Shown in pieces: positions 12,161-28,820 of a DNA stretch of 64,000 nt (positions within the stretch are counted from its first letter, which is position 1; each line of letters opens with the position of its first letter). The translations under genes were made by a program, and so were the position numbers. The DNA is taken from assembly GCF_018156225.1 (NCBI RefSeq), contig NZ_JAGTAR010000031.1, positions 1 to 64,000 of the forward strand. Reading direction: 5' to 3'. This DNA comes from Carboxylicivirga sediminis. Its GTDB lineage: Bacteria > Bacteroidota > Bacteroidia > Bacteroidales > Marinilabiliaceae. Below the pieces are notes generated by a model. The model was not told where the DNA came from, ran no database searches, and was given only the letters and a program-made list of their open reading frames with translations.

Positions 12161-12835
12161 TTAATCCAAAATAAAAGCGCTTCTGCTTTCAAACCAACTA
12201 GGCTCTTTTTGCTTAAGAATTAAATTCGGAGATTTTCCAAAAACAATAGTATTATCTGGAATTATCTCATCCTTCACATAGGAATGAGCTGAAACAAAAA
12301 CATTGTTTCCAATTTTACTGTTTCCGATTACAGTAGCACCGGCAAAAAGCCAAACACCATTTCCTAGAGTAGGGTAAATTCCTTTATTTCCACCAACCGT
12401 GCAGTTTTGTTGGAAGCAAAAGAAATTTCCAATTTTGCCTCTTCCAATAACACTCCCAACGGGATGCTCCATATAAAAGACTTCAGGTAATTCCACTTGG
12501 TAAAACAAATCACAAGAACTAATCATCCTATTCAGGCAATATATCTTGTCAGCTAAACCTGTGCCAAATCTCTTCCACACCATATTGGATAAAAAATAAA
12601 GAAATACAGAATATTGACCTAAGTGATAAGGATTAAACACAACTTCACCTCCTTGATAATAGTACTTATTCTTACATCTTCTAAAGCATTGATCAACACG
12701 TTGAAGAACACTATCCAGTACTTCATCTATTAATTTAGATTCTTCACTGCCAAGCAGAAAATTATTTTCAAGTTGCTTCTTCAGAAGAGGTATTAAAGGC
12801 TTTGTAATTCTCATAACGTTTATATTGCTGTCCAA
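12161..12835 (-). CDS. serine-acetyltransferase-like hexapeptide acyltransferase
   Basis: A 224 aa protein. The N-terminal helical part (residues 1-110) resembles serine O-acetyltransferases. A left-handed beta-helix of hexapeptide repeats follows ('GSVIGRGKIGNF', 'VGGNKGIYPTLGNGVW', 'ATVIGNSKIGNNVFV'). A likely catalytic His is in 'MEHPVGSVIG'. The family moves acyl groups from acyl-CoA to hydroxyls. In a polysaccharide locus it probably O-acetylates a sugar or sugar precursor rather than making O-acetylserine. It overlaps the SDR gene upstream by 16 bases. Confidence 0.72.
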   Translation of the reverse strand: MDSNINVMRITKPLIPLLKKQLENNFLLGSEESKLIDEVLDSVLQRVDQCFRRCKNKYYYQGGEVVFNPYHLGQYSVFLYFLSNMVWKRFGTGLADKIYCLNRMISSCDLFYQVELPEVFYMEHPVGSVIGRGKIGNFFCFQQNCTVGGNKGIYPTLGNGVWLFAGATVIGNSKIGNNVFVSAHSYVKDEIIPDNTIVFGKSPNLILKQKEPSWFESRSAFILD

Positions 12836-13560
12836 CCTCCGTCCACAATTAAATTTTGACCCGTGATGTATTTTGCTTCATCTGAAAGCATAAATGATAC
12901 TGCTGGAGCTATATCATCTGGCCTACCCATACGTTTTAATGGTACTTTACTTTCGTACCTCTCAACAAAAGTAGGATCTTGATGATTAAAAATACCACCT
13001 GGTGAAACGCAATTTACTCTAATTCCATATTTCCCATACATTGAAGCTAAATACCTGGAAAAGTTAATTATCCCACCTTTAATGGCAGAATATCCAGCTG
13101 CCGGGACAATTTCAGTTCCTTCATATAAGGAAAAGTCATTGCCAACTACTCCATATATGGAAGATATATTTATAATGCTTCCACCATTTTCTTGCGTTTT
13201 CATAATTGAAGCAGCCTTCTGGCAAGCGAAGCAATAGCTATTCATTTGCCAATCGACATTCTTACTCCAGGATTCAAATGAAGTTTTCTCAAAATCAACG
13301 CCCCAGTCTTTTGTTCTCGGATAAGCATTATTAACAAACCCATCAATAGTTCCAAAGTGCTCTTTGACCAATTGAATTCGCTCTTGGAAACCATCTATAT
13401 CTGTAACGTCACAATTAATTAAGCCACGCTCCCAACTCTCATCGCTATAGAGGTCAAAACTGATTACTTTTGCCCCCTTAGCATGCATATCATCACACAT
13501 TGACCTACCTAGTAATCCATTCCCACCTGTAATTATAATAACCTTATCTTTTAAACTCAT
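12820..13560 (-). CDS. SDR oxidoreductase, PtmA-like
   Basis: A 246 aa classical short-chain dehydrogenase: 'TGGNGLLGRSM' cofactor site (residues 11-21), 'NNAYPR', 'NISSIYG' with the catalytic Ser, 'YSAIKG' with catalytic Tyr and Lys, and the C-terminal 'YITGQNLIVDGGW'. Homologues called PtmA accompany legionaminic acid genes in Campylobacter, where they are thought to help make the amino-sugar precursor. The gene lies in the same run as ptmE-, legF-, legG- and legI-like genes, 7 bases after the Gfo/Idh gene. The SDR family is certain; the PtmA role is inferred from context. Confidence 0.85.
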   Translation of the reverse strand: MSLKDKVIIITGGNGLLGRSMCDDMHAKGAKVISFDLYSDESWERGLINCDVTDIDGFQERIQLVKEHFGTIDGFVNNAYPRTKDWGVDFEKTSFESWSKNVDWQMNSYCFACQKAASIMKTQENGGSIINISSIYGVVGNDFSLYEGTEIVPAAGYSAIKGGIINFSRYLASMYGKYGIRVNCVSPGGIFNHQDPTFVERYESKVPLKRMGRPDDIAPAVSFMLSDEAKYITGQNLIVDGGWTAI

Positions 13561-13566
13561 ACAAAT

Positions 13567-14478
13567 CTATTTTAAACAATACGTCAAAACATTTAAAGAT
13601 TCAGCAACGTTATTTTCATAATCATTTTTTGATTCTATATGATTAATAAAGTATTGCAACTGGTTCTCATAAGTGTCCAATACGTTATAATCCGGATTAG
13701 AGAACAATACTTCCCCTTGCTCATTTGTTACCTCACATTTAAGCAAGTTAGCAGTCCATATTTCATCTTTAAAAACTATTTCAATAATCCGTTTAGGCTT
13801 TTTTCTAAAGTAATTCAAGCTTATATTAGCAACAAATCTCTCATAAATAAAAGTATAATTGGCATAATCTTTACTTGTAATTTGCAGATCGGAAATTTTC
13901 AGCTTAACAGAGTTCACATTATCAGGCTTTCCAAACAACCAGTATACGTAATCTAATTCGTGTATTACATCAAGATGAACGCCTCCACCTCTTGATTCAC
14001 TGGCACTATATGATTTTGTATAATCAGTATTAGGACGCCAATCTGGCAAATAAGAGCCACAATAAACACTGGCTTCAATTGGTGTTTTACCTTTAATAGC
14101 TATTTTTAAAAATTTAATTACAGGATGAAATCTCAAACTAAAAGCCACATAACTTTTAATGTTGTTCTTCTCAAGGCTTGCCAAAAGTACATTACTTCCT
14201 TCTAAACTCTTCAAAACTGGTTTTTCAATAAACAATGGACATTTAAAAGGGATGCATTCTTTAATGGTCTCATAATGATTTACAGTAGGGTTACAGATCA
14301 TTATAAAATCGATGTTAGCAGGGGCATCAGACAGACTGTAAAGATTATGAACCCCCTCCATTTCATTTGAAGGTTTAATTGATCTTAGAGCATATAGTTC
14401 CAGTGGTGAAACCAGTTTTCTTAAAGCAACAATATGTTTTTTCGCGATTGAACCTAACCCAATTATTAAAACTTTCAT
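13567..14478 (-). CDS. Gfo/Idh/MocA-family oxidoreductase
   Basis: A 303 aa NAD(P)-dependent oxidoreductase with an N-terminal Rossmann fold ('IGLGSIAKKHI', residues 6-16), 'EKPVLKSLEG' after the fold and the 'GGGVHLDVIHELDYVYWLFG' stretch of the substrate domain, where His/Asp catalytic residues sit. It overlaps the CMP-sugar synthetase gene upstream by 4 bases, so it is part of the nonulosonic acid operon. In Campylobacter an oxidoreductase (PtmF) accompanies PtmA. Whether this gene is its counterpart cannot be settled by eye. It probably oxidises or epimerises a sugar intermediate. Confidence 0.82.
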   Translation of the reverse strand: MKVLIIGLGSIAKKHIVALRKLVSPLELYALRSIKPSNEMEGVHNLYSLSDAPANIDFIMICNPTVNHYETIKECIPFKCPLFIEKPVLKSLEGSNVLLASLEKNNIKSYVAFSLRFHPVIKFLKIAIKGKTPIEASVYCGSYLPDWRPNTDYTKSYSASESRGGGVHLDVIHELDYVYWLFGKPDNVNSVKLKISDLQITSKDYANYTFIYERFVANISLNYFRKKPKRIIEIVFKDEIWTANLLKCEVTNEQGEVLFSNPDYNVLDTYENQLQYFINHIESKNDYENNVAESLNVLTYCLK

Positions 14479-15194
14479 AAGTCGAAATCCAATTTGTCAT
14501 TCTTTAGAAGTAATTCCATTATAGTAAAGTCCATTGGATGATCAAGATCAAAACATGTATGAGACATTACATAGGCAAGTGACCGATTGGTAATACTACT
14601 AACATGTCTATCCTGGAAGAAACTCTTTCGAAAGATATAAAATGAAGCATTCATATCATACACATCCGGAGCTGCCTGCCTTGATAGGATATTCTCAGTT
14701 CCACTCTTAACAAGTTGAACATAGCCATCATTACGAGATTCAACCATATTAAAATACGGATTTCGATTTGCCGGACTTACGGAAAATACATTATAAGCTT
14801 GCTCATCATGGAGCAACATATCCAAAGCATTCTCTAAATCCATTACAGTTCTTAATGGAGAAGTTATATCCAGATCAATAACAAAATCAAACTCCAGATT
14901 ATTTTTTACTTCTTCATATTTCTTCAAATCTTCAATAACGGCAATTTTGCCGGCAGTATCTGTAGCCAAATTATCTGGTCTTAGATAGTCTGTTTTCAAC
15001 CCACATTCAGCTGCTACCTTTTGAATATCTGAAGAATCCGTACTTAAAGCTATAACAGTGGAAAACTTTTCCGCAAAGTGTTTTGCAGTCTGTATTGTAT
15101 ACCCTATTAAAGGTAAGCCATTTAGCAGTTTAATGTTTTTCCCAGGAATTCCTTTCGAGCCTCCTCTAGCGCAAATTGTTATTAATATATCCAT
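14475..15194 (-). CDS. CMP-nonulosonate cytidylyltransferase (LegF/NeuA-like)
   Basis: A 239 aa CMP-sugar synthetase that activates a nonulosonic acid with CTP. The N-terminal CTP-binding motif 'ARGGSKGIPGKNIK' (residues 9-22) is complete. 'ALSTDSSDIQ', 'DLDITSPLR' and a late 'FDLDHPMDF' are typical of the family. It follows the ptmE-like gene after 5 bases and overlaps the Gfo/Idh gene. By context its substrate is a legionaminic-acid-type sugar made by the LegI-like enzyme of this run. It resembles the PtmB/LegF group more than KdsB. Confidence 0.88.
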   Translation of the reverse strand: MDILITICARGGSKGIPGKNIKLLNGLPLIGYTIQTAKHFAEKFSTVIALSTDSSDIQKVAAECGLKTDYLRPDNLATDTAGKIAVIEDLKKYEEVKNNLEFDFVIDLDITSPLRTVMDLENALDMLLHDEQAYNVFSVSPANRNPYFNMVESRNDGYVQLVKSGTENILSRQAAPDVYDMNASFYIFRKSFFQDRHVSSITNRSLAYVMSHTCFDLDHPMDFTIMELLLKNDKLDFDL

Positions 15195-15199: not shown

Positions 15200-16243
15200 T
15201 TACTTCAAGTGCCTGATTATTTCTTTTGCCTTATTGTACTCTTCATGTCTACCAATATCAATCCAGTAGCCCGTTATTGGATTATCAATAACCGTTTTCC
15301 CGGTTTGTATCAACTTCTCAATAAGATCTGTAGCATTAAAAAACTCATTTTTCGGAATGAGTTCCATTACTTTCCTTTTCATTAAATATATTCCTGCATT
15401 CGCATAATGAGTATTGGAAGGTTTTTCTTTTAAACCTTTAATACATCCATTTTCTCTGGTGAGGATGGCAAAGGGAATATTGACAGTATAAGGAATAGAT
15501 GCAACAGCTAAATCAGCCGCTCTTTCACAAAGATTAACCCACAGATCCTCAAAGTCTACATCGGTAAAAAGATCTGAATTCATAACTAAGACATAAGGAC
15601 TTTCATATTGATCTACCATACTTGCAGATCCTATCGTACCTAAAAACTCCTTTTCTTCTAAATACTGAATATTCAAACCCTTATCTTTACCATCCCCAAA
15701 ATAATCCTTAATCTGTTCTCCTAAATAATTGATGGAGATGTAGATATTCTCAATACCGAATGATCTTAACCGATCGATATTGTGTTCGATTATAGGTTTG
15801 TTTCCCAGAGGTAACATTGGTTTTGGGGTACTGTTTGTCAATGGACGAAGACGCTCACCTTTTCCTCCTGCCATAATCACAACATCAACTGGCAAAATAG
15901 TGCTTATCCTTTCCAGGTCGTAAACTTTACGAATTGATCCATCCTTATTAAGAACTGGTAATAGATTTACCCCAAAATTTCTATATTCTTTTATCTTGAT
16001 TGGATCAACGCTTCCATTAAGAGCTCTGAAATTAGTTGACATAAAGTTGACAACTGGATCAGAAATAGAATTTCCATTGATCAACCCTCTACGGATATCT
16101 CCATCGGTAATAGTTCCTATCAATTTATTATTACAATCGACTACAAAGACTGTTTGGGCAATTGTGAGGGAATCCAGACGTTTTAATACATCAATAACAG
16201 AGATGGTATCCTGGACAATGAATTTATCTAAGTCCATAAACAT
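15200..16243 (-). CDS. CBS-domain nucleotidyltransferase, PtmE-like
   Basis: A 347 aa protein. A pair of CBS repeats (about residues 5-115; 'GTITDGDIRRGLING' is typical) is followed by a sugar-nucleotidyltransferase domain (about 120-347) with 'MAGGKGERLRPLTNSTPKPML' and 'MNSDLFTD'. This two-part layout is that of PtmE, reported in Campylobacter to make a GDP-amino sugar for legionaminic acid. Its presence suggests a GDP-linked rather than UDP-linked route. The start overlaps legG by about 20 bases; the second Met, two residues in, is an alternative. The CBS pair may sense adenosyl nucleotides. Confidence 0.85.
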   Translation of the reverse strand: MFMDLDKFIVQDTISVIDVLKRLDSLTIAQTVFVVDCNNKLIGTITDGDIRRGLINGNSISDPVVNFMSTNFRALNGSVDPIKIKEYRNFGVNLLPVLNKDGSIRKVYDLERISTILPVDVVIMAGGKGERLRPLTNSTPKPMLPLGNKPIIEHNIDRLRSFGIENIYISINYLGEQIKDYFGDGKDKGLNIQYLEEKEFLGTIGSASMVDQYESPYVLVMNSDLFTDVDFEDLWVNLCERAADLAVASIPYTVNIPFAILTRENGCIKGLKEKPSNTHYANAGIYLMKRKVMELIPKNEFFNATDLIEKLIQTGKTVIDNPITGYWIDIGRHEEYNKAKEIIRHLK

Positions 16244-17336
16244 TTTTAATAATTTGAGTTATTTTTTCTGATGTTTCACCTTCTCCATAAATACAACAGG
16301 GGCTATCAAAGTGCTTATTCATGATACTATTTGCAGAATCAATAATAATCTTCTTTTCAATAGGGATAGTCACTATATTAGGAGTGTTAATTCTCCCATC
16401 TTGACGGCTACCAAGGTTAATTACTCTGGTTGGGAAGAAAGATGCCTCTACAAAACCACTCGATGTGTTACCAATCATCATCGAACAATGCTTCATACAA
16501 CTTAGGTACCCGATCATCCCAAACGACTCAACTACAAATACATTCGACCTACCTTTAGCGAACTCATTAATATACCGACGAACCATATTTCCCATGGTAT
16601 CTGAGTTAGGCATTGTAATAACCACTTGAAACTTCTCTCTTAAAATGTCAAATGCTTCTAATAACTCCTGAATAAAACTTTCATTCTTATCGTAAGCTAC
16701 AGTCTCTGGATGAAATGTAGAAAGTATGGTGGGTTCATCAAGGTCAATTTCAAATCTGTCCTTAAACTCTTCTATGGAATAAAGCCTCTGTTTTTTAAGG
16801 TTATCAACACTCAAAGCACCAACATTAAATACATTTTCCTCACATTTCGTTATCTCACATGCCCTTTGAAAATATTCCTTAGTTGATACAAAATGGTATT
16901 TCGACATAAGAGAAATAGCATGGCGGTATGCATTATCAATAGCTCCTAAAGTAGTTTCTCCTGCATGAATGTGTGCTATATCTATTCCAAAAGGAGAAGC
17001 TGCTGAAACAGCAGCGTACATCTCGTATCTATCTCCCAAAGCAAAAACCAAATCAAAAGAGTTTTTTTTCCAAAAAGATGAAAACTTTACTGTGGTATCT
17101 CCTAATGTAAAGGCAATATCTGAAGGTGTTTCGTTGTCAACGCAGGTAGTGATCTTGTGAGGCACATTAAAACCATAGGATTCTATTTCTGATAGTGTGT
17201 ACCCATGCATTTTACTTAAATGGGTACCAAAGGCTATAATATTAACATCGAATAATGGGTCATCATCCAATCGTTTAATCAAAGGATAAAGGACTCCAAA
17301 ATCAGCCCGTGAACTCGTTAAAACTCCAATCTTCAT
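16224..17336 (-). CDS. hydrolysing NDP-sugar 2-epimerase (LegG/NeuC-like)
   Basis: A 370 aa enzyme of the NeuC group of 2-epimerases. It has the N-terminal 'TSSRADFGVLYPLI' (residues 7-20), 'LGDRYEMYAA', 'HIHAGETTLGAID' and the C-terminal 'GNTSSGFVEASFF'. It removes the nucleotide while inverting C2, giving the free 6-deoxy-diamino-mannose-type sugar that LegI condenses with phosphoenolpyruvate. It overlaps legI by 4 bases. The sialic acid (NeuC) reading is possible from the family alone. The neighbouring LegB, LegC and PtmE types favour the legionaminic acid version. Confidence 0.9.
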   Translation of the reverse strand: MKIGVLTSSRADFGVLYPLIKRLDDDPLFDVNIIAFGTHLSKMHGYTLSEIESYGFNVPHKITTCVDNETPSDIAFTLGDTTVKFSSFWKKNSFDLVFALGDRYEMYAAVSAASPFGIDIAHIHAGETTLGAIDNAYRHAISLMSKYHFVSTKEYFQRACEITKCEENVFNVGALSVDNLKKQRLYSIEEFKDRFEIDLDEPTILSTFHPETVAYDKNESFIQELLEAFDILREKFQVVITMPNSDTMGNMVRRYINEFAKGRSNVFVVESFGMIGYLSCMKHCSMMIGNTSSGFVEASFFPTRVINLGSRQDGRINTPNIVTIPIEKKIIIDSANSIMNKHFDSPCCIYGEGETSEKITQIIKNVYGLR

Positions 17337-18346
17337 AACAAATCCTCCTCTTTTAACATGTGATCTTTTGGCAAATCAGTTGCTAGCACGCGACCACAAT
17401 ACTTATGATAATCTATTGGAGAAATGCCATTGCCTGGTCGTTTCATAATAAAATCGTTTTTTGACAATTTTTCTCCTTTCATCAAATCATGCTTTATATG
17501 GATACTTTTACGTGCAACAGCAATGTTTAATCTTTCCGAAGGTGTCACCTTCTTAACACTATGACCTAAAGCAACTTCAATATTTCGAATGGAACTAACT
17601 AATTGCTTTAGCTCAGAAGGTTCGATTGAGGCTTTATGATCTGGCCCAATCATAGAACGATCTAAAGTATAATGCTTTTCAATAATTTCAGCCCCCAAAG
17701 CCACAGCAGCAATAGATGCTTCCAATCCTTTGGTATGATCGGAATAACCTACCTTAAGTCCAAAAGCAGCTTTTAACATCGGAATCACATTCAAGTTAAC
17801 TTCATTAAAGGGGGCTGGATATTCTGTTGTGCAATGCAAAATAGAAATTTGATCATCAGAAAGCCCTCTCTTTAAAACATTAAGAGCAGTCTCAATCTCA
17901 CTTAAATTTGACATTCCAGTTGAAAGTATAACATCCCGACCCAAAGAAGATATATATTCTAAGTAGGGCAAATTGGTTATCTCACCAGAGGGGACTTTAA
18001 AATAATCCATGCCCAAATCATTTAAAAAATCAATGGACTGCTCTTCGAATGGTGTAGATAAAAAGTTGATTCTGCTTTCATCACAATAACTCTTTAGCGT
18101 TCGAAACTCAGGAAATGATAAGCTAATGCTTTTTATCATATCCAACTGCGTTTGCGAACTATCTGTTTCTCTCTTTTGGTATTCTGCCTTTGGAGCTAAA
18201 GTAGAGACCAGTAACTCCGGGATACCAGTTTGAAATTTGACAAAATCAACATTTGCCTCTTTTGCTTTATCAACAAGTTTTTTTGCTAGCGCTAAATCTC
18301 CATTATGGTTTACACCAGCTTCTGCTATTATTATTACCTTACTCAT
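17333..18346 (-). CDS. nonulosonic acid synthase (LegI/NeuB-like)
   Basis: A 337 aa two-domain enzyme. The N-terminal TIM barrel has 'IAEAGVNHNGDL' (residues 7-18), 'VKFQTG', 'STPFEEQSID', 'KVPSGEITN', 'LSTGMSN' and 'GYSDHTKG'. The C-terminal SAF/antifreeze-like domain (about 280-337) has 'RPGNGISP'. It condenses phosphoenolpyruvate with a six-carbon amino sugar to a nine-carbon nonulosonic acid. Start and stop overlap with legG indicate a single transcript. I infer legionaminic rather than sialic or pseudaminic acid from the gene set. Confidence 0.93.
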   Translation of the reverse strand: MSKVIIIAEAGVNHNGDLALAKKLVDKAKEANVDFVKFQTGIPELLVSTLAPKAEYQKRETDSSQTQLDMIKSISLSFPEFRTLKSYCDESRINFLSTPFEEQSIDFLNDLGMDYFKVPSGEITNLPYLEYISSLGRDVILSTGMSNLSEIETALNVLKRGLSDDQISILHCTTEYPAPFNEVNLNVIPMLKAAFGLKVGYSDHTKGLEASIAAVALGAEIIEKHYTLDRSMIGPDHKASIEPSELKQLVSSIRNIEVALGHSVKKVTPSERLNIAVARKSIHIKHDLMKGEKLSKNDFIMKRPGNGISPIDYHKYCGRVLATDLPKDHMLKEEDLL

Positions 18347-18406: not shown

Positions 18407-19060
18407 CTAAAACTTAATCCTTCTTAAAACTCTTAAATTATCATAATCCCTATTGGTGCCTATAAAACCTGCATCTATATCTCTATCAATATAAGTTAAA
18501 GCATCAACAATGCAATCATTCCCAATTCTTTTGCCTTGTAAAATAAAAGAATTTGCACCTATCAGGGTCCGACTAGCTATGTGACAGTTACCTCCTATAC
18601 TAACTCCTGGATTAATAATATTATGATTTTCAATGGTTGTATCATGTCCTACTACAAGATTGTAGTTAAAAACATTATTATCTCCAACATTTACATTGGA
18701 AGATATCACTGCATTAGCAGCTATATAATTCCCTTTTCCAATAGTAGCAGAAGGCGAAATTTCAGCCTTTGGATGAATTACATTCGTAGGTTCAGCCCCT
18801 AATGAATTCATTAGCTCTTCTATTTTTAATCGCAGTTTATGATTGGCGAAGGATATAATAAACTTAGTGTTTTTATTCGCTATATCGGAAACCTCTGAAT
18901 CGTATAAATAACTTGGATTAAGCTTTTCCTCTGTATTGGCAATTACATGATATACTTTATCGTAATCATTACGGAAATATCGTTTGATTACTTCAAAAAT
19001 TTCAATTGCAGTGCTCTGTCCTCCAAAAATCAAAAGTGTACTACACATAACTATTCTCAA
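18407..19060 (-). CDS. NeuD/PglD-like sugar acyltransferase
   Basis: A 217 aa protein with an N-terminal Rossmann-like part ('LLIFGGQSTA', residues 9-18; normally 'GxGGxG') and a hexapeptide-repeat beta-helix ('HPKAEISPSATIGKGNYI' and following). The likely catalytic His is in 'VVGHDTTIENHN'. Related enzymes acetylate amino groups of bacillosamine-type sugars (PglD) or hydroxyls of sialic acid (NeuD). It lies directly before legI and is one of two candidates, with the GNAT at 20074, for the LegH N-acylation step. A start four codons later is equally possible. Confidence 0.8.
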   Translation of the reverse strand: MRIVMCSTLLIFGGQSTAIEIFEVIKRYFRNDYDKVYHVIANTEEKLNPSYLYDSEVSDIANKNTKFIISFANHKLRLKIEELMNSLGAEPTNVIHPKAEISPSATIGKGNYIAANAVISSNVNVGDNNVFNYNLVVGHDTTIENHNIINPGVSIGGNCHIASRTLIGANSFILQGKRIGNDCIVDALTYIDRDIDAGFIGTNRDYDNLRVLRRIKF

Positions 19061-21143: not shown

Positions 21144-23627
21144 TTATACTAAGGGTCCTCCGAATGTAGCCCATCGCACCAGGCGATCCATAATAAAAAT
21201 ACCATCCCATGGTGACTCAAAATTTAGCATTCTGCCAATTTCCGGACATCTCATGACACCAGATTCGACAGCTTTCGTTGCGAACTCAAGTGCTTTATCA
21301 CCATTAGCGGCTAATCCAATGGTTTGCGTATCTTCATCTACATACTTCAAGCAATCCATAATAGATAATACCGGATTAACACTAATAACTCTAGAATACA
21401 CGGGTTTATTCAACTCCAATTCATCGGAATAAAGAACCGTCCAAGTTGAGTCTTTGCTTGCGAAAACTTCTCCTTTAAAATCATAAACTCCCCTAATCGA
21501 ATGAATTTCTGAAATCTGCTCAATACTTGTTTCACCTTTGGGAATTTGTATGGAGGTTTTCTCCAACGATGTAGCCAGGTATTCGCAAAACTGTTTAGGA
21601 GAAATATTTCCTCCACTTTCGATAAAAAGATTATGAGGAGAGGCACAGCCGGTTTGGTCAAATATACTAACATCTACAGATACTTTTCGAGCCAGTTTCT
21701 TTGCTTTCCTTTCGGTCTCAAGCATTTCTTTGGATATAGCTGAAAAAGATAGCTTTGGCCCAAAAATTATATCTTCAGTATCAAATTTAGCCGGATATTG
21801 TGCCACTGCCTGAACGGCACTTCTCCCCCCCCAGGCAATTCTAACTTCAGCTTCTTTAGACATTAATTCACCTATCAATTTATTACCTGAAGAGAAATAG
21901 ACGATAGCAATAGTTTTTAATAGATCGTTCCCTTTAATTGTATACCCGCCAGGGGTAGTAAATTCTGTATCTTCAAAAGCTTGTAAGAGCTTGGTAAATA
22001 CACCATCGTCATTAGAAGAGACCTTAAGTAAATTGACATTTTTAGTTAAAATACATTGAATTAGTGCAAACATTCCCAAAATTTGGACATTTCCAGCCAA
22101 CCAATGAGCAACTAACCCTCTTGCATTCGCTTTAAGAAATTGCTTTCGCGATTGCCCGAAACTTAGGAACGATTCAATGTATCGTCTGTTACCTCTTAAG
22201 CCTAATGTTGCAATGCGATTCAGGTGTTCTGGTTGGGACCAGCTAGCAAGGAATGAAAGTCCTTTATCTTTGAGATTAACTAGTTCTCCTTCTGCTCTCA
22301 TCCATTTCTTCGAAACTTTGCCAATCAAACCAATTAAGGCATCAATAGGTTGATCATTCAACCATTTTTTCCTTTCCTTTAGTTGATCAATGACAGCTTG
22401 TAACTTTTTCTCATCTGAAAAATCCGAGGCTATCGGGGTATTCTTCCAATATATAACCTGAAGTTTATCGGATCCAGAATGAGAAGTGTAAATATCGACA
22501 TCAGAGAACTTCAGCTTACTTGACAATATATCACCACAACCGCGCACTTCTGCTTTTTTAAGGCGACCTAACACCTTAAACCTTGTACCTTTTCTTTTAT
22601 AGGGACAAGGTTCATTATTTACAACTCCTATATCATCAGTTAAAATAACATTTCCAGGGTAAGAATGTTGAATAGGGGATACGAATTGTAATACACCTTC
22701 TTCCCCATCAGGAAGAACTTCTCGTGTGGCAGGATCTCTTACAATGACTTCAGAGTAGGCAGGAACATGTTTATATCCACATTCACAATCTGGATAATTC
22801 AATCCCATTTGTTCAGTAAAGCCATATATATCAATAACATCGGCATCTCTAATGCCGAAAACGGAAGCAACTTGTTCATTAAACTTTTCTTTGCTTATTT
22901 TCTCTGATTCAAGTTTTTTCCAGCCTCCAATATGTATTACTTTAGACCCCTTTGGCAAACTCAACTTTATCCCCTTCAGATTAAGCTCCTTAACAACATG
23001 ACTGAACAAAATATAGGTAAATCCAAAAACAATTATAGGTTCGTCCTGAGATTGTTCTTTTACAAACTCATCTACTGATTCAAGTCTGAATTGCGCGAGA
23101 TTGCTTTTACTTAATTCAAGACCATACTCAACCTTGCTGGCAAAGTTTAAGTAGCCACTAATAGCCGCATATCTTGCACCTAAAAAATTAATATTTTCGG
23201 GTTTGGGACTCACATCTACTACTATAAAAGGCTTCCTATCAGCTCCGATAAATTCCTTCATCACTTTAACCATTACTTTAGATTGCCTTTTCGAAGTGAT
23301 CTTATCAACAACAACAGTGCTAGGGCGTCCAGAAGTAGCAGATGACTGTAAAGATATTTTAACTTCATTTTCAGGAACAGATCTTAACATTTGCCCCATC
23401 TCCTTAAACACACTGACTGCTACAGGAGGAATATCTTCGAGTTTACCATCAAAATTATTCGGATCAAATTGTTTTCTTGTACAAAACTGCTTATACTCAT
23501 TATTGTTATTATAATGATAACACAACTCTTCGATAAGTGCACTAAGAAACAATTTCGACTTCTTATTGCTATCTAACTCGTATGGGGCCGCGCCTACTAA
23601 TAAATCAACTTTACTTTTTTCCTTCAT
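21144..23627 (-). CDS. LuxE-LuxC fusion: acyl-protein synthetase / acyl reductase
   Basis: An 827 aa fusion. Residues 1 to about 390 are a LuxE-like adenylating domain with 'SSATSGRPS' (95-103), 'YGFTEQMG' (268-275), 'LTDDIG' (329-334) and 'EVRGCGDI' with Cys364, placed like the acyl-accepting Cys near the end of LuxE. Residues about 440-827 are a LuxC-like acyl reductase of the aldehyde dehydrogenase superfamily, with the nucleophile Cys661 in 'DQTGCASPHN'. Together they should activate a carboxylic acid with ATP, hold it as a thioester and reduce it with NAD(P)H to an aldehyde. No luciferase or LuxD gene is present. Overlaps the alcohol dehydrogenase gene by 4 bases. The acid is unknown. 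Confidence 0.85.
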   Translation of the reverse strand: MKEKSKVDLLVGAAPYELDSNKKSKLFLSALIEELCYHYNNNNEYKQFCTRKQFDPNNFDGKLEDIPPVAVSVFKEMGQMLRSVPENEVKISLQSSATSGRPSTVVVDKITSKRQSKVMVKVMKEFIGADRKPFIVVDVSPKPENINFLGARYAAISGYLNFASKVEYGLELSKSNLAQFRLESVDEFVKEQSQDEPIIVFGFTYILFSHVVKELNLKGIKLSLPKGSKVIHIGGWKKLESEKISKEKFNEQVASVFGIRDADVIDIYGFTEQMGLNYPDCECGYKHVPAYSEVIVRDPATREVLPDGEEGVLQFVSPIQHSYPGNVILTDDIGVVNNEPCPYKRKGTRFKVLGRLKKAEVRGCGDILSSKLKFSDVDIYTSHSGSDKLQVIYWKNTPIASDFSDEKKLQAVIDQLKERKKWLNDQPIDALIGLIGKVSKKWMRAEGELVNLKDKGLSFLASWSQPEHLNRIATLGLRGNRRYIESFLSFGQSRKQFLKANARGLVAHWLAGNVQILGMFALIQCILTKNVNLLKVSSNDDGVFTKLLQAFEDTEFTTPGGYTIKGNDLLKTIAIVYFSSGNKLIGELMSKEAEVRIAWGGRSAVQAVAQYPAKFDTEDIIFGPKLSFSAISKEMLETERKAKKLARKVSVDVSIFDQTGCASPHNLFIESGGNISPKQFCEYLATSLEKTSIQIPKGETSIEQISEIHSIRGVYDFKGEVFASKDSTWTVLYSDELELNKPVYSRVISVNPVLSIMDCLKYVDEDTQTIGLAANGDKALEFATKAVESGVMRCPEIGRMLNFESPWDGIFIMDRLVRWATFGGPLV

Positions 23628-24760
23628 ACCATTAATGACTTCAATATTGCGTCAATATAAGCTTTATCAATAACTACAGGATTACCTTGTCCACCCTTAT
23701 CATTAATGATATTCTCATATAGAATCGTATTACCATACATCTTACCCAGATCATCTTTAAATGCACTAATTTCGCTTTCCAGGCTTAATTCACTCTTAAC
23801 CTTATTGATTAAAGCGATCAAATCCTCATATGATTCTCCTAAACCAGAAGATTTAGCCAGTTTATTGTATTTCAACAAAGCTTCTTTATTCTTGGCATTT
23901 GCTTTAATAACTTCTGTTAAAACAAGAGCAATTCCCAATGCATGTGGGTAATTCATGGCTCCTAACTGATGGGCAATAGCATGACATGCTCCAACGATAC
24001 AATGGTTTTGAACCATTCCGGCAAAATAAGATGCCATCTGAAGGTTCTGAATTTTGCATTTATCTGAATCCAATATGCCTTTATAGTTGCTAGCTATTAG
24101 ACTAAGAGCTTTTTCGGCATAGACATCAATTAGTTCATTATCTACATTTGATACATATCCTTCTATTAAGTGAGCTAAAGCATCGATACATGATAAAAGC
24201 AACACTTTTTTAGGGGCATTTTCTAGAAAGATAGAATCAAAAACAACCACTTCAGGTATAAATGAATGAGAAACGACAAATTCCTTAGTAGCTTTTTCTT
24301 CATTTATCAATACAGCTGCAGATGATAACTCTGAACCACTTCCAATCGTTGTAGGAATAGCAATAAACTTTGTACTCCACTCTAACATGGAAAAATTATT
24401 GTTTTCAATATCAAAATATGGAAACTCATAAAGGCACCTTAAAATTTTGGCTCCATCGAGAACGCTTCCTCCACCAATGGCCAGTATCACATCTGGTTGG
24501 AATTCCTCAAGGTCTTTTAGATTCTCCTTAAAACTTTTGCGAGTAGGCTCATCAGCCCAAGTTTTTTTTATAAACTTTATAGAAAATGCAGAGGTGCTTT
24601 TAGTTATTAGTTCTTTGTGCCTTTCATTAATTCCAGTCCCGTGTATGACTGCTAACCTTGACATGGGCAGGGTCTTGAGTCCACCCATCGCATTTTCCCC
24701 GAATAGAATATGCGGCTGTTTTAAAATGAATTTGCTATATAGATTTTGTGGTGTCCACAT
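23624..24760 (-). CDS. iron-containing alcohol dehydrogenase
   Basis: A 378 aa group III alcohol dehydrogenase. The NAD(P)-binding motif is 'GGGSVLDGAK'. The metal ligands are visible: Asp and His in 'IDALAHLIEG', and two His in 'CHAIAHQLG' and 'NYPHALG'. The spacing between the last two His is one residue shorter than in FucO. Members reduce aldehydes or oxidise alcohols, and the family includes 4-hydroxybutyrate dehydrogenases. Between an acyl ligase and an acyl reductase it most likely reduces the aldehyde made by the LuxE-LuxC protein to an alcohol. It starts 3 bases after the ligase stop and overlaps the next gene. Confidence 0.88.
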   Translation of the reverse strand: MWTPQNLYSKFILKQPHILFGENAMGGLKTLPMSRLAVIHGTGINERHKELITKSTSAFSIKFIKKTWADEPTRKSFKENLKDLEEFQPDVILAIGGGSVLDGAKILRCLYEFPYFDIENNNFSMLEWSTKFIAIPTTIGSGSELSSAAVLINEEKATKEFVVSHSFIPEVVVFDSIFLENAPKKVLLLSCIDALAHLIEGYVSNVDNELIDVYAEKALSLIASNYKGILDSDKCKIQNLQMASYFAGMVQNHCIVGACHAIAHQLGAMNYPHALGIALVLTEVIKANAKNKEALLKYNKLAKSSGLGESYEDLIALINKVKSELSLESEISAFKDDLGKMYGNTILYENIINDKGGQGNPVVIDKAYIDAILKSLMV

Positions 24761-24763
24761 TTC

Positions 24764-26224
24764 TTAATTCCCTTTAAGTTTTAAACGTTGTATTTTCCCT
24801 GACTTGGTTTTTGGTATTTCTTCAATCCATTCATACTCGACAGGCATCTTGTATGATTCGAGTTTACCAGCTAATGCCGTTTTAATGTCTTCAAATACTA
24901 ACTTTTCATCAGATTTAACAACAAAGGCTTTGACTACTTCCCCCAATACCCCATTTTTATCTGGAATACCAACACATACCGATTCTTCAACTCCTTGAAT
25001 TAAATCAATTTGTGTTTCTACTTCCATCGGATTCAATTTCTTTCCGCCAACATTAATCGTCTCTTTTATCCGACCTGCTAGCACTATATACCCCTTTTCA
25101 TTACAGTAGCCAAAATCTCCTGTCCTGAAAAAAGATCCGTAGAAATAGTCTTCAGAAGGAAGCTTCCAATATGTATTTAATACATGCTCTCCTTTCACAC
25201 AAATTTCACCTTCCTGGCCTGGAGCAAGTTCATTACCAAGACTATCAAAAATCTTAACTTCTACATTGGGACTAGGTTTGCCAATGGTTTCTAGTTGTTC
25301 GAACTCACTATGAAATTCTATGAAACAGGAACGTGAAGCTTCTGTTAAACCATAATGCATACAAATACGTGTCTTCGGAAGATATTTCATTAGAACATGT
25401 TTATCCTCTAATGGCAAAAAAGCACTACCAAATTCAATATACTTTAACTGATCTTTAAATTCTGAAATACGATCTCCACTCATTTTTTTCAGAAACTGCC
25501 AGGCAGACGGTACCATAGCAAGACCTGATACATTATGAAGTGCCATTAAACGAAATAATTTCTTGACACTAGCAAAGCTACCCAATAGAATAAGGGTACT
25601 CCCCTTAGATAAAGCACACCTAATTCTACCTAACCCAAAGGAGTGACTAATAGGTAACGCAATAATTTCAATATCTTCTTCCTTATTCCCGATAAACTCA
25701 TTGATATTTCTTGCACTGGCTACTAAATTACTATGCGTCAACTGAACTCCTTTGGGAATTCCTGTTGTACCAGTTGTGAACAACAGGTCACTTATATCCT
25801 CCTTTTCAGGAAAGTGATATTCTATATTAGAGAATTGTTGTCCTTCCAGTATAGGAAATTTATGTGTCTGCACATTTAAGCTGGTAGTACTTAATCCTAT
25901 AATACATTTAGATTTTGTGTTTTCAATAACAAAACAAAGTCGTTCATCATTAATATCAACTGCTACCGGAATAGCTATAGCTCCAATTAAATGAATTGCA
26001 AAATAGGTATAAATAAACTCAATATTCTTATCTGTTGCTAGTACTATCCTATCATCCTTCCGAATATCTAAAGTCGATTCAAGGTACATTTTAGCACTAA
26101 GAATATACTCTTTTAAAGAGCGATAAGTTACTTCCTTTTTACCATGTATTATAGCGACTTTATCAGGTATCAACTTACTATTGATAAAAACCTGTTCTAC
26201 TATTGAATTCACATTTTCCATCAC
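24764..26224 (-). CDS. AMP-forming acyl ligase (acyl-ACP synthetase candidate)
   Basis: A 486 aa member of the adenylate-forming family: 'LFTTGTTGIPKG' (phosphate loop), 'YGLTEASR', 'TGDFGYCNEKGYI', 'GRIKETINVGGKKLNP' and the C-terminal catalytic lysine motif 'KTKSGKIQR'. It is full length. It begins at the last base of the ACP stop codon, so the two are translationally coupled, and the natural acceptor of its acyl-AMP is probably that ACP rather than free CoA. The acid is unknown. The Campylobacter flagellar glycan island also has an adenylating enzyme next to a carrier protein, so the pairing has a precedent in a nonulosonic acid setting. Confidence 0.85.
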   Translation of the reverse strand: MMENVNSIVEQVFINSKLIPDKVAIIHGKKEVTYRSLKEYILSAKMYLESTLDIRKDDRIVLATDKNIEFIYTYFAIHLIGAIAIPVAVDINDERLCFVIENTKSKCIIGLSTTSLNVQTHKFPILEGQQFSNIEYHFPEKEDISDLLFTTGTTGIPKGVQLTHSNLVASARNINEFIGNKEEDIEIIALPISHSFGLGRIRCALSKGSTLILLGSFASVKKLFRLMALHNVSGLAMVPSAWQFLKKMSGDRISEFKDQLKYIEFGSAFLPLEDKHVLMKYLPKTRICMHYGLTEASRSCFIEFHSEFEQLETIGKPSPNVEVKIFDSLGNELAPGQEGEICVKGEHVLNTYWKLPSEDYFYGSFFRTGDFGYCNEKGYIVLAGRIKETINVGGKKLNPMEVETQIDLIQGVEESVCVGIPDKNGVLGEVVKAFVVKSDEKLVFEDIKTALAGKLESYKMPVEYEWIEEIPKTKSGKIQRLKLKGN

Positions 26225-26457
26225 TATTTAATTCGTTCTTCAACTGCTTCTAATATATCACCAACATCTTCTAAATCCATTAAGACTTCTGGATCAAATT
26301 TAAAACCAAATTCGTCTTCAATTCCAGCAATAATTGTTAAGTGACCTAACGAATCCCATTTCGGGAAATCTCCAATAGCGGTTTCTTCTGTTATCTCACT
26401 CTTTTCAACACTAAGTCTTTCTGCAATAATTGAAATTACTTTCTCTGATACATTCAT
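26224..26457 (-). CDS. dedicated acyl carrier protein
   Basis: A 77 aa acidic four-helix carrier protein with the phosphopantetheine site 'WDSLGHL' (Ser36). The usual house-keeping ACP motif is 'DSLDTVE', so this is a specialised carrier. It sits 10 bases after the legC-like gene and overlaps the ligase gene. It needs a phosphopantetheinyl transferase, not encoded in the window. It is expected to carry the acyl group activated by the neighbouring ligase to an acyltransferase. Confidence 0.9.
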   Translation of the reverse strand: MNVSEKVISIIAERLSVEKSEITEETAIGDFPKWDSLGHLTIIAGIEDEFGFKFDPEVLMDLEDVGDILEAVEERIK

Positions 26458-26467: not shown

Positions 26468-27616
26468 TTAAAAAATTACACTACTTGGGATATTGACTAT
26501 CCTATCTTCTAACCAAATCGAATTCTCTAAATCACCCTTTTGCTCTTTCTTGTACATCGGCAATCGACTCATTAACTTCCAAATTGGCCTTGTCATTACT
26601 CCATTGTCGTTGGAGATCTTTAAAAACTCGTCTCTCTGAGCCTTATCTTTTAATACAATAGCATTTAACCAGTAGTTTGATCTACAGTCTTTTGGCTCAC
26701 AAATAAAATCAATGTCTAATTCTTTAAAAAACTCTTTGTATATACTAGCAGTTTCACGCTTACTTTTAATTATAAAATCAATTTGTTCTAGTTGAGCACA
26801 ACCTATTGCAGCATTAATGTTAGGCATCCTAAGATTATAGCCAATCTCATCGTGACTAAACTCCCAAGCATGTGGTTCTTTTGCTTGTGTTGTCAAATGC
26901 TTAGCTTTCTGAGCAAGCACATTATCATTAAAGAGGAGCATTCCTCCTCCCCCAGTGGTAATTGTTTTATTGCCGTTAAAACTTAAAACTCCTACTTTCC
27001 CATAAGTTCCTGTGTGCCTACCTTTATAATAACTTCCAAGGCTTTCTGCAGCATCTTCAACAAGCTCAAGTTTATATTCCACACAAACCTGAATTAACTC
27101 ATCAAGTCGAACCGGATGCCCAAAAGTATGCATCGGAACACACGCCTTGATTCTCCTTCCTGTTACCTTGTTATAACAAGCTCCTTTCTTAATTTCCGCG
27201 TTGGCAGCTAACCACTTCTTTACCGCCATTGGTGAGAGTCCAAGAGTATCGCGATCTACGTCTATAAATATCGGATACGCTCTGCAGTAAGATATCGCAT
27301 TAGCTGTTGCTATAAATGTAAGAGCCTGTGTTATAACTTCATCTCCTTGCTGCACTCCTACCAGCTGTAAAGCTAAATGAAGGGCATTTGTTCCATTAAC
27401 ACATACTACCGCGTTTTTGGCACCTGTGTAAATTGCCATTTCATTTTCAAATCGATCAACAAACTTACCTACACTAGAAACAAATGTTGAATCAATACAT
27501 TCGTTCAGATATTTCTTTTCATTGCCATTGAAAACAGGTGCATGCAAGGGAATGAAACCTTCAGAGTTATTATATATAGCCCTTATCTTATTTATAACAT
27601 TATGAAAACTTCCCAT
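26468..27616 (-). CDS. LegC-type PLP aminotransferase
   Basis: A DegT/DnrJ-family aminotransferase: 'IPLHAPVFNGNEKKYL', 'STFVSSVGKFVDRFE', 'VNGTNALHLALQ', 'EDAAESLGS' and 'SFNGNKTITTGGGG' with the PLP lysine. These match the LegC group, which aminates the 4-keto sugar made by LegB. The frame is open up to an ATG at 27676, but that overlaps legB by 44 bases. The ATG at 27616 lies 16 bases after the legB stop and fits the usual start of the family, so I chose it. The ATG at 27646 is a third option. It directly follows legB. Confidence 0.88.
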   Translation of the reverse strand: MGSFHNVINKIRAIYNNSEGFIPLHAPVFNGNEKKYLNECIDSTFVSSVGKFVDRFENEMAIYTGAKNAVVCVNGTNALHLALQLVGVQQGDEVITQALTFIATANAISYCRAYPIFIDVDRDTLGLSPMAVKKWLAANAEIKKGACYNKVTGRRIKACVPMHTFGHPVRLDELIQVCVEYKLELVEDAAESLGSYYKGRHTGTYGKVGVLSFNGNKTITTGGGGMLLFNDNVLAQKAKHLTTQAKEPHAWEFSHDEIGYNLRMPNINAAIGCAQLEQIDFIIKSKRETASIYKEFFKELDIDFICEPKDCRSNYWLNAIVLKDKAQRDEFLKISNDNGVMTRPIWKLMSRLPMYKKEQKGDLENSIWLEDRIVNIPSSVIF

Positions 27617-27632
27617 ATCAAATAACCTAAAT

Positions 27633-28820
27633 TTACATTTTTGCATCAAGGTATTTTCCTTTTTCCTGATGCCCAAAATCTTTAATCATTTCATGAAACA
27701 ACTGAACAATTTGCTCTTTTGACCACTTCCCTTCTATTTTTAATTCCTGGATTCTAGAAGTAAAATAATCAAGTTTATTATTATTATACTCAGGTACATT
27801 CTTAATCACACCAATATTATTAAACCGTGCTAAATCAAGTGTTTCATTTTCGGTATAAAACTCTTCAAAATCTTTCTCCCCTGTAGTATCACTTTCTGTA
27901 AATAAACAAGGCCATTTACCTTCTTCAGGAAGTGTATTAACCAATTCTCTTGCTTCATCCTCGGTAGAACACTCATATGGTTCGTACCCCAAGTCTCTTA
28001 AATATCCAATGGCAATATCTGAAAATGTAATTAAATGCAAATCTTCACTTAACTTGGGAAAGAAAATATCACGATTTTCACCGAATATACAAGACATTAA
28101 GCAAAGCTCTCCTGACTCTTTAGGAATGACGAAATAGCGCTTAATATCTTTTGGAGCAACAATAGGTTGTCTCTTTTGTATTCGTTGGTTAAATCCATGA
28201 AGCAAGCTTCCGTCAGAAAAAGCAACATTTGCAAACCTTGCAGTTGAAATTGTAATTTCTTCACTCCTGCGCATTAAAAACATTTCCATTATCCGTTTTG
28301 AGCCCCCCATCATATTTACCGGATTAGCCGCTTTATCTGTAGAAACACAAAAGTATTTTTTTGAGCCCTTACTAACTGCTTGCTGTATTGTTTTGTCTGT
28401 ATTAAAAACATTAACTTCAACCATACGCATTAAAGTGAACGGATCTTTTTCACTTCTAACATGTTTGAGAGCAGATAAATTCAATACATAATCATATTTT
28501 CCATCCGCCTCAATAAACGCATCATATTCAGCTGAACCGATATCTAGAGCGAAGGTTTGAAAATCACCATCTATATAACCAAACGAACTTCTAATGTCAC
28601 GTACCAGCTCAACCATATTGTTTTCGCTGATATCTACAATATGAAGCTTTTTAGGATTTCGCTTAAATATTTCTTTAGAAACAGCCTGTCCAATTGAGCC
28701 TGCACCGCCAATAACCAAGAATGATGATTTTGATACTATGTCATCAAGTTCATTATTATATCTCTCAATATCACTTGCAAATAATTCCTTATTACGTCCA
28801 ATCAGGTCTAGAATATTCAT
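27633..28820 (-). CDS. NDP-N-acetylglucosamine 4,6-dehydratase (LegB-like)
   Basis: A 395 aa extended SDR of the CapD/FlaA1 group. It has 'VIGGAGSIGQAVSKEIF' at the N-terminus, 'DISENNMVEL', 'LNLSALKHVRSEKDP', 'CVSTDKAANPVNMMGGSKR' (Met in place of the classical catalytic Tyr, as in related dehydratases) and 'ARFANVAFSDGS'. It forms the 4-keto-6-deoxy sugar for the LegC-like aminotransferase that follows. By the presence of the PtmE-like gene I infer GDP-GlcNAc as substrate; UDP-GlcNAc cannot be excluded. Confidence 0.87.
   Translation of the reverse strand: MNILDLIGRNKELFASDIERYNNELDDIVSKSSFLVIGGAGSIGQAVSKEIFKRNPKKLHIVDISENNMVELVRDIRSSFGYIDGDFQTFALDIGSAEYDAFIEADGKYDYVLNLSALKHVRSEKDPFTLMRMVEVNVFNTDKTIQQAVSKGSKKYFCVSTDKAANPVNMMGGSKRIMEMFLMRRSEEITISTARFANVAFSDGSLLHGFNQRIQKRQPIVAPKDIKRYFVIPKESGELCLMSCIFGENRDIFFPKLSEDLHLITFSDIAIGYLRDLGYEPYECSTEDEARELVNTLPEEGKWPCLFTESDTTGEKDFEEFYTENETLDLARFNNIGVIKNVPEYNNNKLDYFTSRIQELKIEGKWSKEQIVQLFHEMIKDFGHQEKGKYLDAKM

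Follow-up and report, generated by a model that had tools for sequence, protein, structure and literature searches.

A candidate acyl-donor cassette combining an acyl carrier protein, an acyl ligase, an iron-type alcohol dehydrogenase and a LuxE-LuxC fusion in a legionaminic acid locus of Carboxylicivirga sediminis

Gene sets for short hydroxyacyl groups on sugars that depend on a linked acyl carrier protein (ACP), and islands that combine LuxE and LuxC with ACP and ligase genes, are known already; the four adjacent genes analyzed here, encoding an ACP, an AMP-forming acyl ligase, an iron-type alcohol dehydrogenase (Fe-ADH) and a LuxE-LuxC fusion, add a variant to them. They lie in a nonulosonic acid locus of Carboxylicivirga sediminis (assembly GCF_018156225.1, contig NZ_JAGTAR010000031.1), within a stretch of 64,000 nucleotides, positions 1-64,000 in forward-strand numbering, referred to below as the window. 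The closest systems comprise (i) flagellin islands with ACP-FabG-ligase-LuxE-LuxC sets, which papers of 2016 and 2021 read as a liposugar or fatty-aldehyde route (PMC4875605, PMC7874193); (ii) wfpC-wfpG of Flavobacterium psychrophilum, whose O-antigen R-group, 3,5-dihydroxyhexanoyl, is known by nuclear magnetic resonance and for which the authors predicted an ACP-based route (PMC6519341); and (iii) the O1-exclusive genes of Yersinia ruckeri, including a legionaminic acid cluster and, elsewhere, the tags BI323_13885-13905, whose annotated products in locus-tag order are a phosphopantetheine protein, an AMP synthetase, a 3-oxoacyl-ACP reductase and, after one tag that the list skips, a polysaccharide deacetylase (PMC5552943).

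The Aeromonas group II and enterobacterial flagellin islands share with the window an ACP, an AMP ligase, LuxE, LuxC and one carbonyl reductase, with pseudaminic acid genes adjoining in Aeromonas, whereas their LuxE and LuxC are separate genes and their reductase is a short-chain dehydrogenase/reductase (SDR) (PMC7874193, PMC4875605). The same gene content is resembled by 36 unfused LuxE/LuxC regions from the order of Vibrio fortis (PMC4875605, PMC7874193), with an ACP in 35, a ligase in 35, an SDR in 31, NeuB in 26 and transketolase in 4, and in none of the 36 an Fe-ADH or the type of GNAT or deacetylase found in the window. These regions were fetched from 40 of 60 matched genomes, leaving out L201-L203 (weak LuxE, ACP or ligase not found) and L204 (Fe-ADH type). 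In F. psychrophilum, much as proposed for the window, the authors expect a short hydroxyacyl group to be held by a dedicated ACP and placed on a sugar amine by an acyltransferase; unlike in the window, ketoacyl-ACP synthases and a ketoreductase would build this group, UDP-Qui2NAc4N serves as acceptor for a PglD-like transferase, and LuxE-LuxC, Fe-ADH and ligase are not named in the available text (PMC6519341). Y. ruckeri O1 resembles the window in having genes for a phosphopantetheine protein, an AMP synthetase, a reductase and a polysaccharide deacetylase linked with a legionaminic O antigen, but LuxE/LuxC are not among the genes listed in the available text, the reductase is annotated as a 3-oxoacyl-ACP reductase and the tags stand away from the Leg cluster (PMC5552943). 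LuxCDE of luminous bacteria likewise contains LuxE and LuxC domains with conserved cysteines; in the window, unlike there, both domains form one chain, the set includes an ACP and a ligase in a sugar locus, and luciferase was not found in the genome. The original prediction, a note made from the letters of the window, had regarded the reductive part as new in this role, which goes too far, LuxE-LuxC-ACP-ligase sets having been reported in flagellin islands (PMC4875605, PMC7874193). No paper linking an Fe-ADH with LuxE-LuxC and an ACP in a sugar locus was found among those listed by a search that was not aimed at Fe-ADH itself and had most subscription papers outside its coverage.

The four genes probably constitute a portable acyl-donor cassette for amino-sugar N-acylation, acting here on legionaminic acid. 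This reading draws on gene families, catalytic residues, gene order, distance correlations and the pairing of a GNAT and a deacetylase with other acyl makers, from which every reaction, its order and its site are deduced. Pfam and NCBIfam assignments and the catalytic residues bear out the predicted arrangement of ACP, ligase, Fe-ADH and LuxE-LuxC between a legC gene and a GNAT in a nonulosonic acid locus, the GNAT at fold level (Table 1). Counted from the first start codon of each open reading frame, ACP and ligase share 1 base and Fe-ADH and fusion share 4, in agreement with the predicted overlaps of 1-4 bases, but ligase and Fe-ADH are separated by a 3-base gap; LegC lies upstream of the ACP across 10 bases, and the GNAT-fold gene downstream of the fusion across 14.

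Table 1. Genes of the legionaminic acid locus in the window, with the profile matches on which their names are based.
Feature	Position	Strand	Basis
LegB-like UDP-sugar 4,6-dehydratase	27633-28820	-	PF02719 1.3e-41
LegC aminotransferase	26468-27676	-	TIGR04181 4.7e-170, above cut-off
ACP, 77 aa	26224-26457	-	PF00550 8.5e-8; DSL serine
AMP-forming acyl ligase, 486 aa, GTG start	24764-26224	-	PF00501 5.7e-61, PF13193
Fe-ADH, 378 aa	23624-24760	-	PF00465 9.7e-26, PF25137
LuxE-LuxC fusion, 827 aa	21144-23627	-	PF04443 2.2e-119 (residues 8-372), PF05893 1.2e-81 (residues 424-819)
Tandem GNAT-fold protein, 351 aa	20074-21129	-	Predicted fold; without Pfam or NCBIfam match
Polysaccharide-deacetylase-family protein, 330 aa	19085-20077	-	PF01522 1e-21
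LegH/NeuD-like hexapeptide N-acetyltransferase	18407-19060	-	TIGR03570 2.7e-39, below cut-off
LegI/NeuB nonulosonic acid synthase	17333-18346	-	TIGR03569 (named N-acetylneuraminate synthase) 2.8e-138, above cut-off
LegG/NeuC 2-epimerase (hydrolysing)	16224-17336	-	TIGR03568 (named for neuraminate) 2.6e-111, above cut-off
PtmE-like CBS + nucleotidyltransferase	15200-16243	-	PF00483 3.5e-36; PF00571 6.6e-5, just below cut-off
LegF-like CMP-nonulosonate synthetase	14475-15194	-	PF02348 4.1e-18
PtmF-like Gfo/Idh/MocA oxidoreductase	13567-14478	-	PF01408
PtmA-like SDR	12820-13560	-	NF050062 PtmA 4e-46, below cut-off

The cassette proteins preserve catalytic residues of their families. C364 in the LuxE part and C661 in the LuxC part are invariant in all 46 fusions compared (45 retrieved and that of the window), and in luminous bacteria the acyl group is borne by these two LuxE/LuxC cysteines; among solved structures, the LuxE and LuxC chains of 7xc6 come closest to the fusion. 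In the Fe-ADH, D193, H197, H260 and H273, which presumably bind the metal, are invariant in 28 of 28 proteins. The serine motif of the ACP (DSL or DSM), whose serine takes the phosphopantetheine, is present in all 21 extracted ACPs, a set that includes the window but not L080 and L089, and the window ligase carries the adenylation motifs TGTTGIPKG, YGLTE, RTGD and KTKSGK.

A scan of named genomes, in which the best 80 of 547 relatives were taken as loci (designated L) and which leans towards window-like proteins, retrieved a full fusion, defined as a best match to the window fusion longer than 700 aa, in 45 of the 80. Fe-ADH stands directly upstream in 22 of these, a split transketolase is found on the stretch in 14, and 9 show neither, two of the nine (L057 and L063) lying on cut contigs of about 4-5 kb. 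The gap between Fe-ADH and fusion ranges from -70 to +21 bases in the 22 loci, all of which have a ligase upstream of the Fe-ADH (that of L060 more distant, 29% identical) and all but one an ACP before the ligase. The strict order ACP-ligase-FeADH-LuxEC holds in 20, the exceptions being L080, with one inserted gene, and L089, whose contig begins inside the ligase. In a tree of 46 LuxEC rows, all Fe-ADH-type fusions including that of the window fall on one side of a single branch with support 100/100, a grouping reached in none of 500 shuffles. Distances also correlate among the 22 rows compared, window included, with Mantel r of 0.93 for LuxEC and Fe-ADH, 0.79 for LuxEC and ligase and 0.66 for Fe-ADH and ligase (0 of 5000 permutations each). 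In addition, the fusions of Agarivorans and Vibrio fortis (L086 and L087, at about 10001-12445 in each) are 98% identical, pointing to recent transfer between families. The constant order, the correlated distances, the single-branch grouping and this recent transfer indicate that the four genes travel together as a unit, as their predicted coupling implied, often beside acyltransferases and mostly in glycan loci; its recurrence in 22 other loci likewise indicates that the pairing of Fe-ADH and fusion is more than chance.

The Fe-ADH type extends over Bacteroidota, Spirochaetota, Bacillota and Pseudomonadota, and over Verrucomicrobiota by one long-branched metagenome contig (L092). Phage and plasmid collections yielded distant relatives only, all below 60% identity. 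The Fe-ADH form may be the older one, judging from a midpoint root that nests the transketolase and other fusions inside it. In L093, L096 and L100, an ACP, a ligase and an Fe-ADH stand before LuxE and LuxC as separate genes, in L093 within a NeuB locus; the Fe-ADH form can therefore exist without the fusion. In the 14 transketolase-type loci (L055, L056, L058, L059, L061, L062, L068, L069, L075, L076, L081, L082, L083 and L102) the two-subunit enzyme replaces the Fe-ADH beside ligase-LuxEC, usually with an ACP and often with a ketoacyl-ACP synthase III (KS III) and an SDR, and the aldehyde may there be extended by a ketol unit instead of being reduced. Most unfused sets have an SDR in the slot of the Fe-ADH, and some of the other fusions have a transketolase there, which could act on the same aldehyde.

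The surroundings of the 22 Fe-ADH-type loci are chiefly those of glycan synthesis, so that the case the original prediction had named as damaging, modules found mostly away from amino-sugar pathways, did not arise. Clear amino-sugar genes accompany ten of them, including (i) NeuB in seven (L054, L067, L073, L086, L087, L089, L095), (ii) FdtA with a DegT aminotransferase in two (L074, L088), and (iii) DegT- and LegB-like genes in one (L092); three more have a deacetylase and/or GNAT without NeuB on the stretch (L072, L080, L084), and five have other glycan genes only, recognized by local profiles or Pfam (L050, L053, L060, L071, L079). An acyltransferase-family gene, by Pfam or direct homology, occurs on the fetched stretch in 14 of the 22: the window GNAT family in L067, L073, L080, L084, L086, L087 and L095, a Pfam GNAT in L060, L071 and L074, an aminoglycoside-acetyltransferase-like protein in L091, and a hexapeptide transferase, N- and O-transfer not being distinguished, in L088, L051 and L052, the last resembling L051 in its weak match and in its arrangement. 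Putative acyltransferases of L053, L090 and L092, based on local labels or BLAST only, are counted apart, and the local label GNAT_3 in L079 was dropped from the count, Pfam giving a GT28-like domain. Outside nonulosonic acids the clearest case, by its gene order, is Marinomonas polaris, with RmlB-RmlA-FdtA-ACP-ligase-FeADH-LuxEC-hexapeptide transferase-DegT aminotransferase, a set which we take to be a dTDP-3-amino-3,6-dideoxyhexose pathway; the order in Anaerovibrio is FdtA-GNAT-ACP-ligase-FeADH-LuxEC-DegT. Among individual loci, the cultured spirochaete Treponema parvum (L054) has the cassette in its NeuB locus followed by a small polysaccharide-deacetylase-family gene at 13290-14072, and in L084, a metagenome assembly, the GNAT gene at 7516-8568 is split over two open reading frames by a break or an assembly error.

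The protein encoded directly downstream of the fusion matches neither Pfam nor NCBIfam, and its sequence finds only weak, unrelated matches among solved structures. Its AlphaFold model, with a mean pLDDT of 82, retrieves in Foldseek tandem GNATs, glucosamine N-acetyltransferase and N-myristoyltransferase (E 1.5e-8 to 2.4e-6 among the 50 matches listed). The name GNAT therefore stands at fold level, as a match to a superfamily rather than to a function, and the model indicates that a linked gene of N-acyltransferase fold adjoins the cassette. The deacetylase that follows contains TFDD and SHGYDH, which we take to be the functional motifs of its family, and its N-terminal part matches the PgaB model TIGR03938 over 87 residues with 72.5 bits, below the cut-off of 321.9. 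Deacetylase and GNAT are neighbours also in L067, L073, L086, L087, L095, L120, L220 and L226.

A profile of 9 rows built from the window GNAT (match at E <=0.001, strong below 1e-60) found 7 matches, 4 of them strong, in 394 genomes of the Vibrio fortis order; 6 matches, 2 strong, in 198 relatives of the window genome; and 5 matches, 2 strong, in 395 genomes of the phylum set, one strong match in each of the last two sets being the window itself. Three strong loci lack a LuxE-LuxC match on the fetched stretch, and each has a different neighbourhood. The first, L220 (7323-19415), from the window's own family, contains Leg genes, a deacetylase 62% identical to that of the window, a GNAT 38% identical to the Vibrio one, and a Pfam-checked SDR-ACP-KS III set, expected from its families to make a 3-hydroxyacyl group. 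L212 (9692-17073) combines LegF-, NeuB- and NeuC-like genes with an FkbH-like protein (PF21211 1.1e-8), an ACP, a glyoxalase-like protein and the GNAT; FkbH proteins load a glyceryl unit on an ACP, and a glyceroyl nonulosonic acid is a possible product of the FkbH-like-ACP-GNAT set. A polysialyltransferase-like gene is also present in L212. In L226 (8570-14404), AMP ligase-SDR-GNAT-deacetylase stands beside HisF/HisH-like amidotransferase genes and LegF- and LegC-like genes. With LuxE and LuxC present, L120 (8599-15403), a NeuB locus, shows ligase-LuxE-LuxC, a gene of the lactate/malate dehydrogenase (LDH/MDH) family, deacetylase and GNAT, with an ACP about 4 kb further on, and L121 shows transketolase-SDR-ligase-LuxE-LuxC with the GNAT, the 95-aa open reading frame before its ligase not being a Pfam ACP. 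Because a constant GNAT, mostly with the deacetylase, stands beside varying acyl makers, the product of the cassette would be an acyl-ACP used by this GNAT. On the most plausible reading, the cassette is one of several interchangeable acyl-ACP donors that feed an N-deacetylase/N-acyltransferase pair, which would replace an N-acetyl group, and this substitution of acyl makers is the strongest evidence for it. The outline of the original prediction, a hydroxyacyl group passing from ACP through GNAT to a sugar, agrees with the unit behaviour, the acyltransferase neighbours and the glycan context, but it had missed the adjacent N-deacetylase.

In the proposed route, the LuxE part would activate an acid with ATP and hand it through the two cysteines to the LuxC part for NAD(P)H-dependent reduction to the aldehyde, which the Fe-ADH would reduce to an alcohol, giving an omega-hydroxy acid if the starting acid has two carboxyls. 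The ligase would then adenylate the remaining carboxyl and load the hydroxy acid on the dedicated ACP, a step suggested by the adjacency of ligase and ACP. The deacetylase would remove one N-acetyl group from the sugar or its precursor, most likely at the nitrogen that becomes N5, since LegH would supply the acetyl at N7; deacetylation before re-acylation is suggested by the recurrent GNAT/deacetylase pairing and would explain how a non-acetyl group is placed in a pathway that starts from an N-acetylated sugar. Finally, the GNAT would take over the hydroxyacyl group held by the ACP and place it on the freed amine, as its fold and the substitution of acyl makers suggest.

The presence of two acid-activating enzymes, LuxE and ligase, suggests a dicarboxylic acid, reduced at one end and loaded by the other. 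Genes for the synthesis of an uncommon acid are absent from the cassette, which makes succinate, malate or a similar central metabolite the economical assumption. Of the candidates, 4-hydroxybutanoyl derived from succinate appears the likeliest acyl group in the window, with the chances of this and of all other acyl groups together about balanced. It is favoured, by an indirect link, because it is documented on 3-amino-3,6-dideoxyhexoses, the type of sugar suggested by the genes beside the cassette in Marinomonas and Anaerovibrio: 3,6-dideoxy-3-(4-hydroxybutyramido)-D-galactose in Pseudoalteromonas (PMC3210612) and, by a title in reference lists, 3-N-(4-hydroxybutanoyl)-3,6-dideoxy-D-glucose in Idiomarina abyssalis (PMC8074265, PMC9695755, PMC7281560). 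In Aeromonas piscicola AH-3, ACP-FabG-ligase-LuxE-LuxC stands beside pse genes, and the flagellin carries a 376.14 Da pseudaminic derivative and a 102 Da moiety, called an unknown carbohydrate by the authors (PMC7874193). Replacing one acetyl of Pse5Ac7Ac by C4H6O3 gives a calculated 376.148, a value that two C3 hydroxyacyl groups also give, and C4H6O3 itself has a mass of 102.03. The O1 antigen of Y. ruckeri presumably contains a 5-(4-hydroxybutyramido)-7-acetamido nonulosonate. The order ligase-SDR-GNAT-deacetylase in L226 suggests by analogy that the unlisted Y. ruckeri tag may be a GNAT. An acyl cassette is not named in the available parts of five further Y. ruckeri papers (PMC5981175, PMC10174560, PMC6028603, PMC5320707, PMC6770984), nor are an acyl carrier and an alcohol dehydrogenase mentioned in those of a survey of Vibrionaceae nonulosonic clusters (PMC7371886). 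Together, the 3-amino sugars, Y. ruckeri O1 and Aeromonas AH-3 favour a hydroxylated C4 acyl group.

The wider synthesis, which we hold tentatively and consider slightly doubtful when all its parts are taken jointly, is that an N-deacetylase and a tandem GNAT edit the N-acyl groups of bacterial nonulosonic acids and are fed by interchangeable KS III-ACP-FabG, FkbH-ACP, ligase-SDR or phylum-mobile reductive LuxE-LuxC/Fe-ADH cassettes, the last turning a dicarboxylic into an omega-hydroxy acid; that the window product is 5-N-(4-hydroxybutanoyl)-7-N-acetyl-legionaminic acid; and that the "liposugar" genes of the Aeromonas and enterobacterial flagellin islands are makers of short hydroxyacyl groups too. 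Several observations weigh against parts of the cassette reading. The thioesters of 4-hydroxybutanoate can lactonise. The fold matches of the GNAT are moderate, with TM-scores on the query of 0.34-0.54, mostly below 0.5, and root-mean-square deviations of 5.2-9.6. Among solved chains, the ligase is closest in sequence to a gramicidin synthetase module and to oxalate and malonyl-CoA ligases, which leave the acid unfixed, and neither for the ligase nor for the Fe-ADH did the nearest solved structures decide on it. On the NCBIfam 4-hydroxybutyrate dehydrogenase model NF058672 the Fe-ADH scores 94.8 bits against a cut-off of 500, less than on the AdhE and lactaldehyde reductase models, which shows no more than its distance from NF058672. 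As for the comparison loci, no deacetylase was found in the L212 stretch, neither ACP nor NeuB was recognised in that of L226, and L221 is a weaker case, with a deacetylase, a distant GNAT relative and no recognised ACP. Among the Fe-ADH-type loci, a recognised glycan gene is absent from the fetched stretch in four of the 22 (L051, L052, L090, L091), though L051, L052 and L091 have an acyltransferase-family gene, and L060 (Lachnospiraceae, 2770-15020) also has extra ACPs, KS III, SDR, a second ligase and a thioesterase, so that its cassette may serve a secondary-metabolite cluster. LuxE/LuxC are absent from the Y. ruckeri O1 list as available, where 4-hydroxybutanoyl would need an aldehyde from elsewhere (PMC5552943).

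Alternative explanations differ in how much of the proposed route they retain. The same mechanism might use another acid, malate giving dihydroxybutanoyl or malonate giving 3-hydroxypropanoyl, which we judge rather unlikely. The AH-3 set, with its 376.14 Da derivative and a 102 Da moiety that match the C4H6O3 arithmetic, speaks for it (PMC7874193), as does, for malate, the LDH/MDH-family gene of L120 directly after LuxC and before the deacetylase, a hint of a malate-like acid. The AH-3 lineage, however, is unfused and has an SDR, with Fe-ADH in 0 of 36 such sets; two C3 hydroxyacyl groups reach the same 376.148, and the 102 Da moiety is classed by the authors as an unknown carbohydrate (PMC7874193); and the structures named above for 3-amino-3,6-dideoxyhexoses with such a hydroxybutanoyl group have the 4-hydroxy form. 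A lipid-bearing glycan, in which LuxE-LuxC and Fe-ADH make a fatty aldehyde or alcohol while ligase and ACP supply a fatty acyl group, would fit the family names, the 7xc6 LuxE and LuxC chains nearest to the fusion and the "liposugar" reading stated for related gene sets (PMC4875605, PMC7874193). It is very improbable here: luciferase (PF00296) has 0 matches in the window's own genome, with 10 of 14 control genomes positive; the fusion scores 118.6 bits against a cut-off of 550 and 103.7 against 750 on the NCBIfam long-chain LuxE and LuxC models NF052244 and NF052251; and relatives of the GNAT stand also with KS III-ACP-SDR and FkbH-like-ACP sets, expected to make short acyl groups. On the missing luciferase and the low model scores a fatty-aldehyde or luminescence role was set aside. 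The search for the LuxD acyltransferase (PF02273) is uninformative, with 0 matches in the genome and none in the 14 controls either.

Two further explanations change the order or the acceptor rather than the chemistry. LuxC homologues can accept acyl thioesters, and gene order does not fix reaction order, so that the ligase might load the acid on the ACP first, LuxC reduce the acyl-ACP, and the alcohol be an end product attached without the GNAT; this course is improbable, leaving LuxE and the ACP-linked transferase without a role despite an acyltransferase-family gene in 14 of 22 Fe-ADH-type loci and in 3 more by local labels only. Of similarly low probability is that a different sugar of the repeat unit is the target of the cassette, which would then sit in the legionaminic locus by position only. 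Its occurrence in dTDP-3-amino-hexose loci and the further sugar genes of the window at 1632-5454 are consistent with this, but the Leg operon here encloses cassette, GNAT and deacetylase, all three are close to NeuB and further nonulosonic acid genes in L067, L073, L086, L087 and L095, and a Pfam scan of window genes gave no FdtA among those covered.

Serotype, as well as recognition by the immune system and by phages, depends in part on the N-acyl groups of surface sugars. If the cassette reading is true, it would provide (i) a signature by which hydroxyacylation of nonulosonic and 3-amino sugars could be recognised from genes, (ii) a glycan-building role for the LuxE/LuxC family apart from light, (iii) a reinterpretation of the flagellin-island genes and, for Aeromonas AH-3, of the pseudaminic derivative of 376 Da and the moiety of 102 Da, and (iv) a four-gene donor unit with a deacetylase/transferase pair for glycan engineering.

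The locus as a whole, from LegB down to the PtmA-like SDR, runs on the minus strand of a contig from a 5.8 Mb genome, in the order given in Table 1, with a Wzz-like protein and a polysaccharide export protein upstream. It is by its gene families an apparently complete legionaminic acid locus of the GDP branch (LegB, C, H, G, I and F with PtmE, PtmF and PtmA types); LegC and the TIGR03568 and TIGR03569 matches lie above cut-off, the remaining legionaminic genes being named by Pfam family or by below-cut-off matches. The names PtmE and PtmF follow the Campylobacter pathway, in which the PtmE-like protein would mark the GDP branch. The genome contains a single LuxC match, and none of 13 same-genus genomes has a match to the fusion, so that the cassette was probably acquired by the window genome. 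Elsewhere in the window, positions 1632-5454 encode a nucleotidyltransferase that has a ManC-type helix, an epimerase and a member of the GDP-mannose 4,6-dehydratase family, which may supply the same polysaccharide with a second sugar, of the GDP-fucose type.

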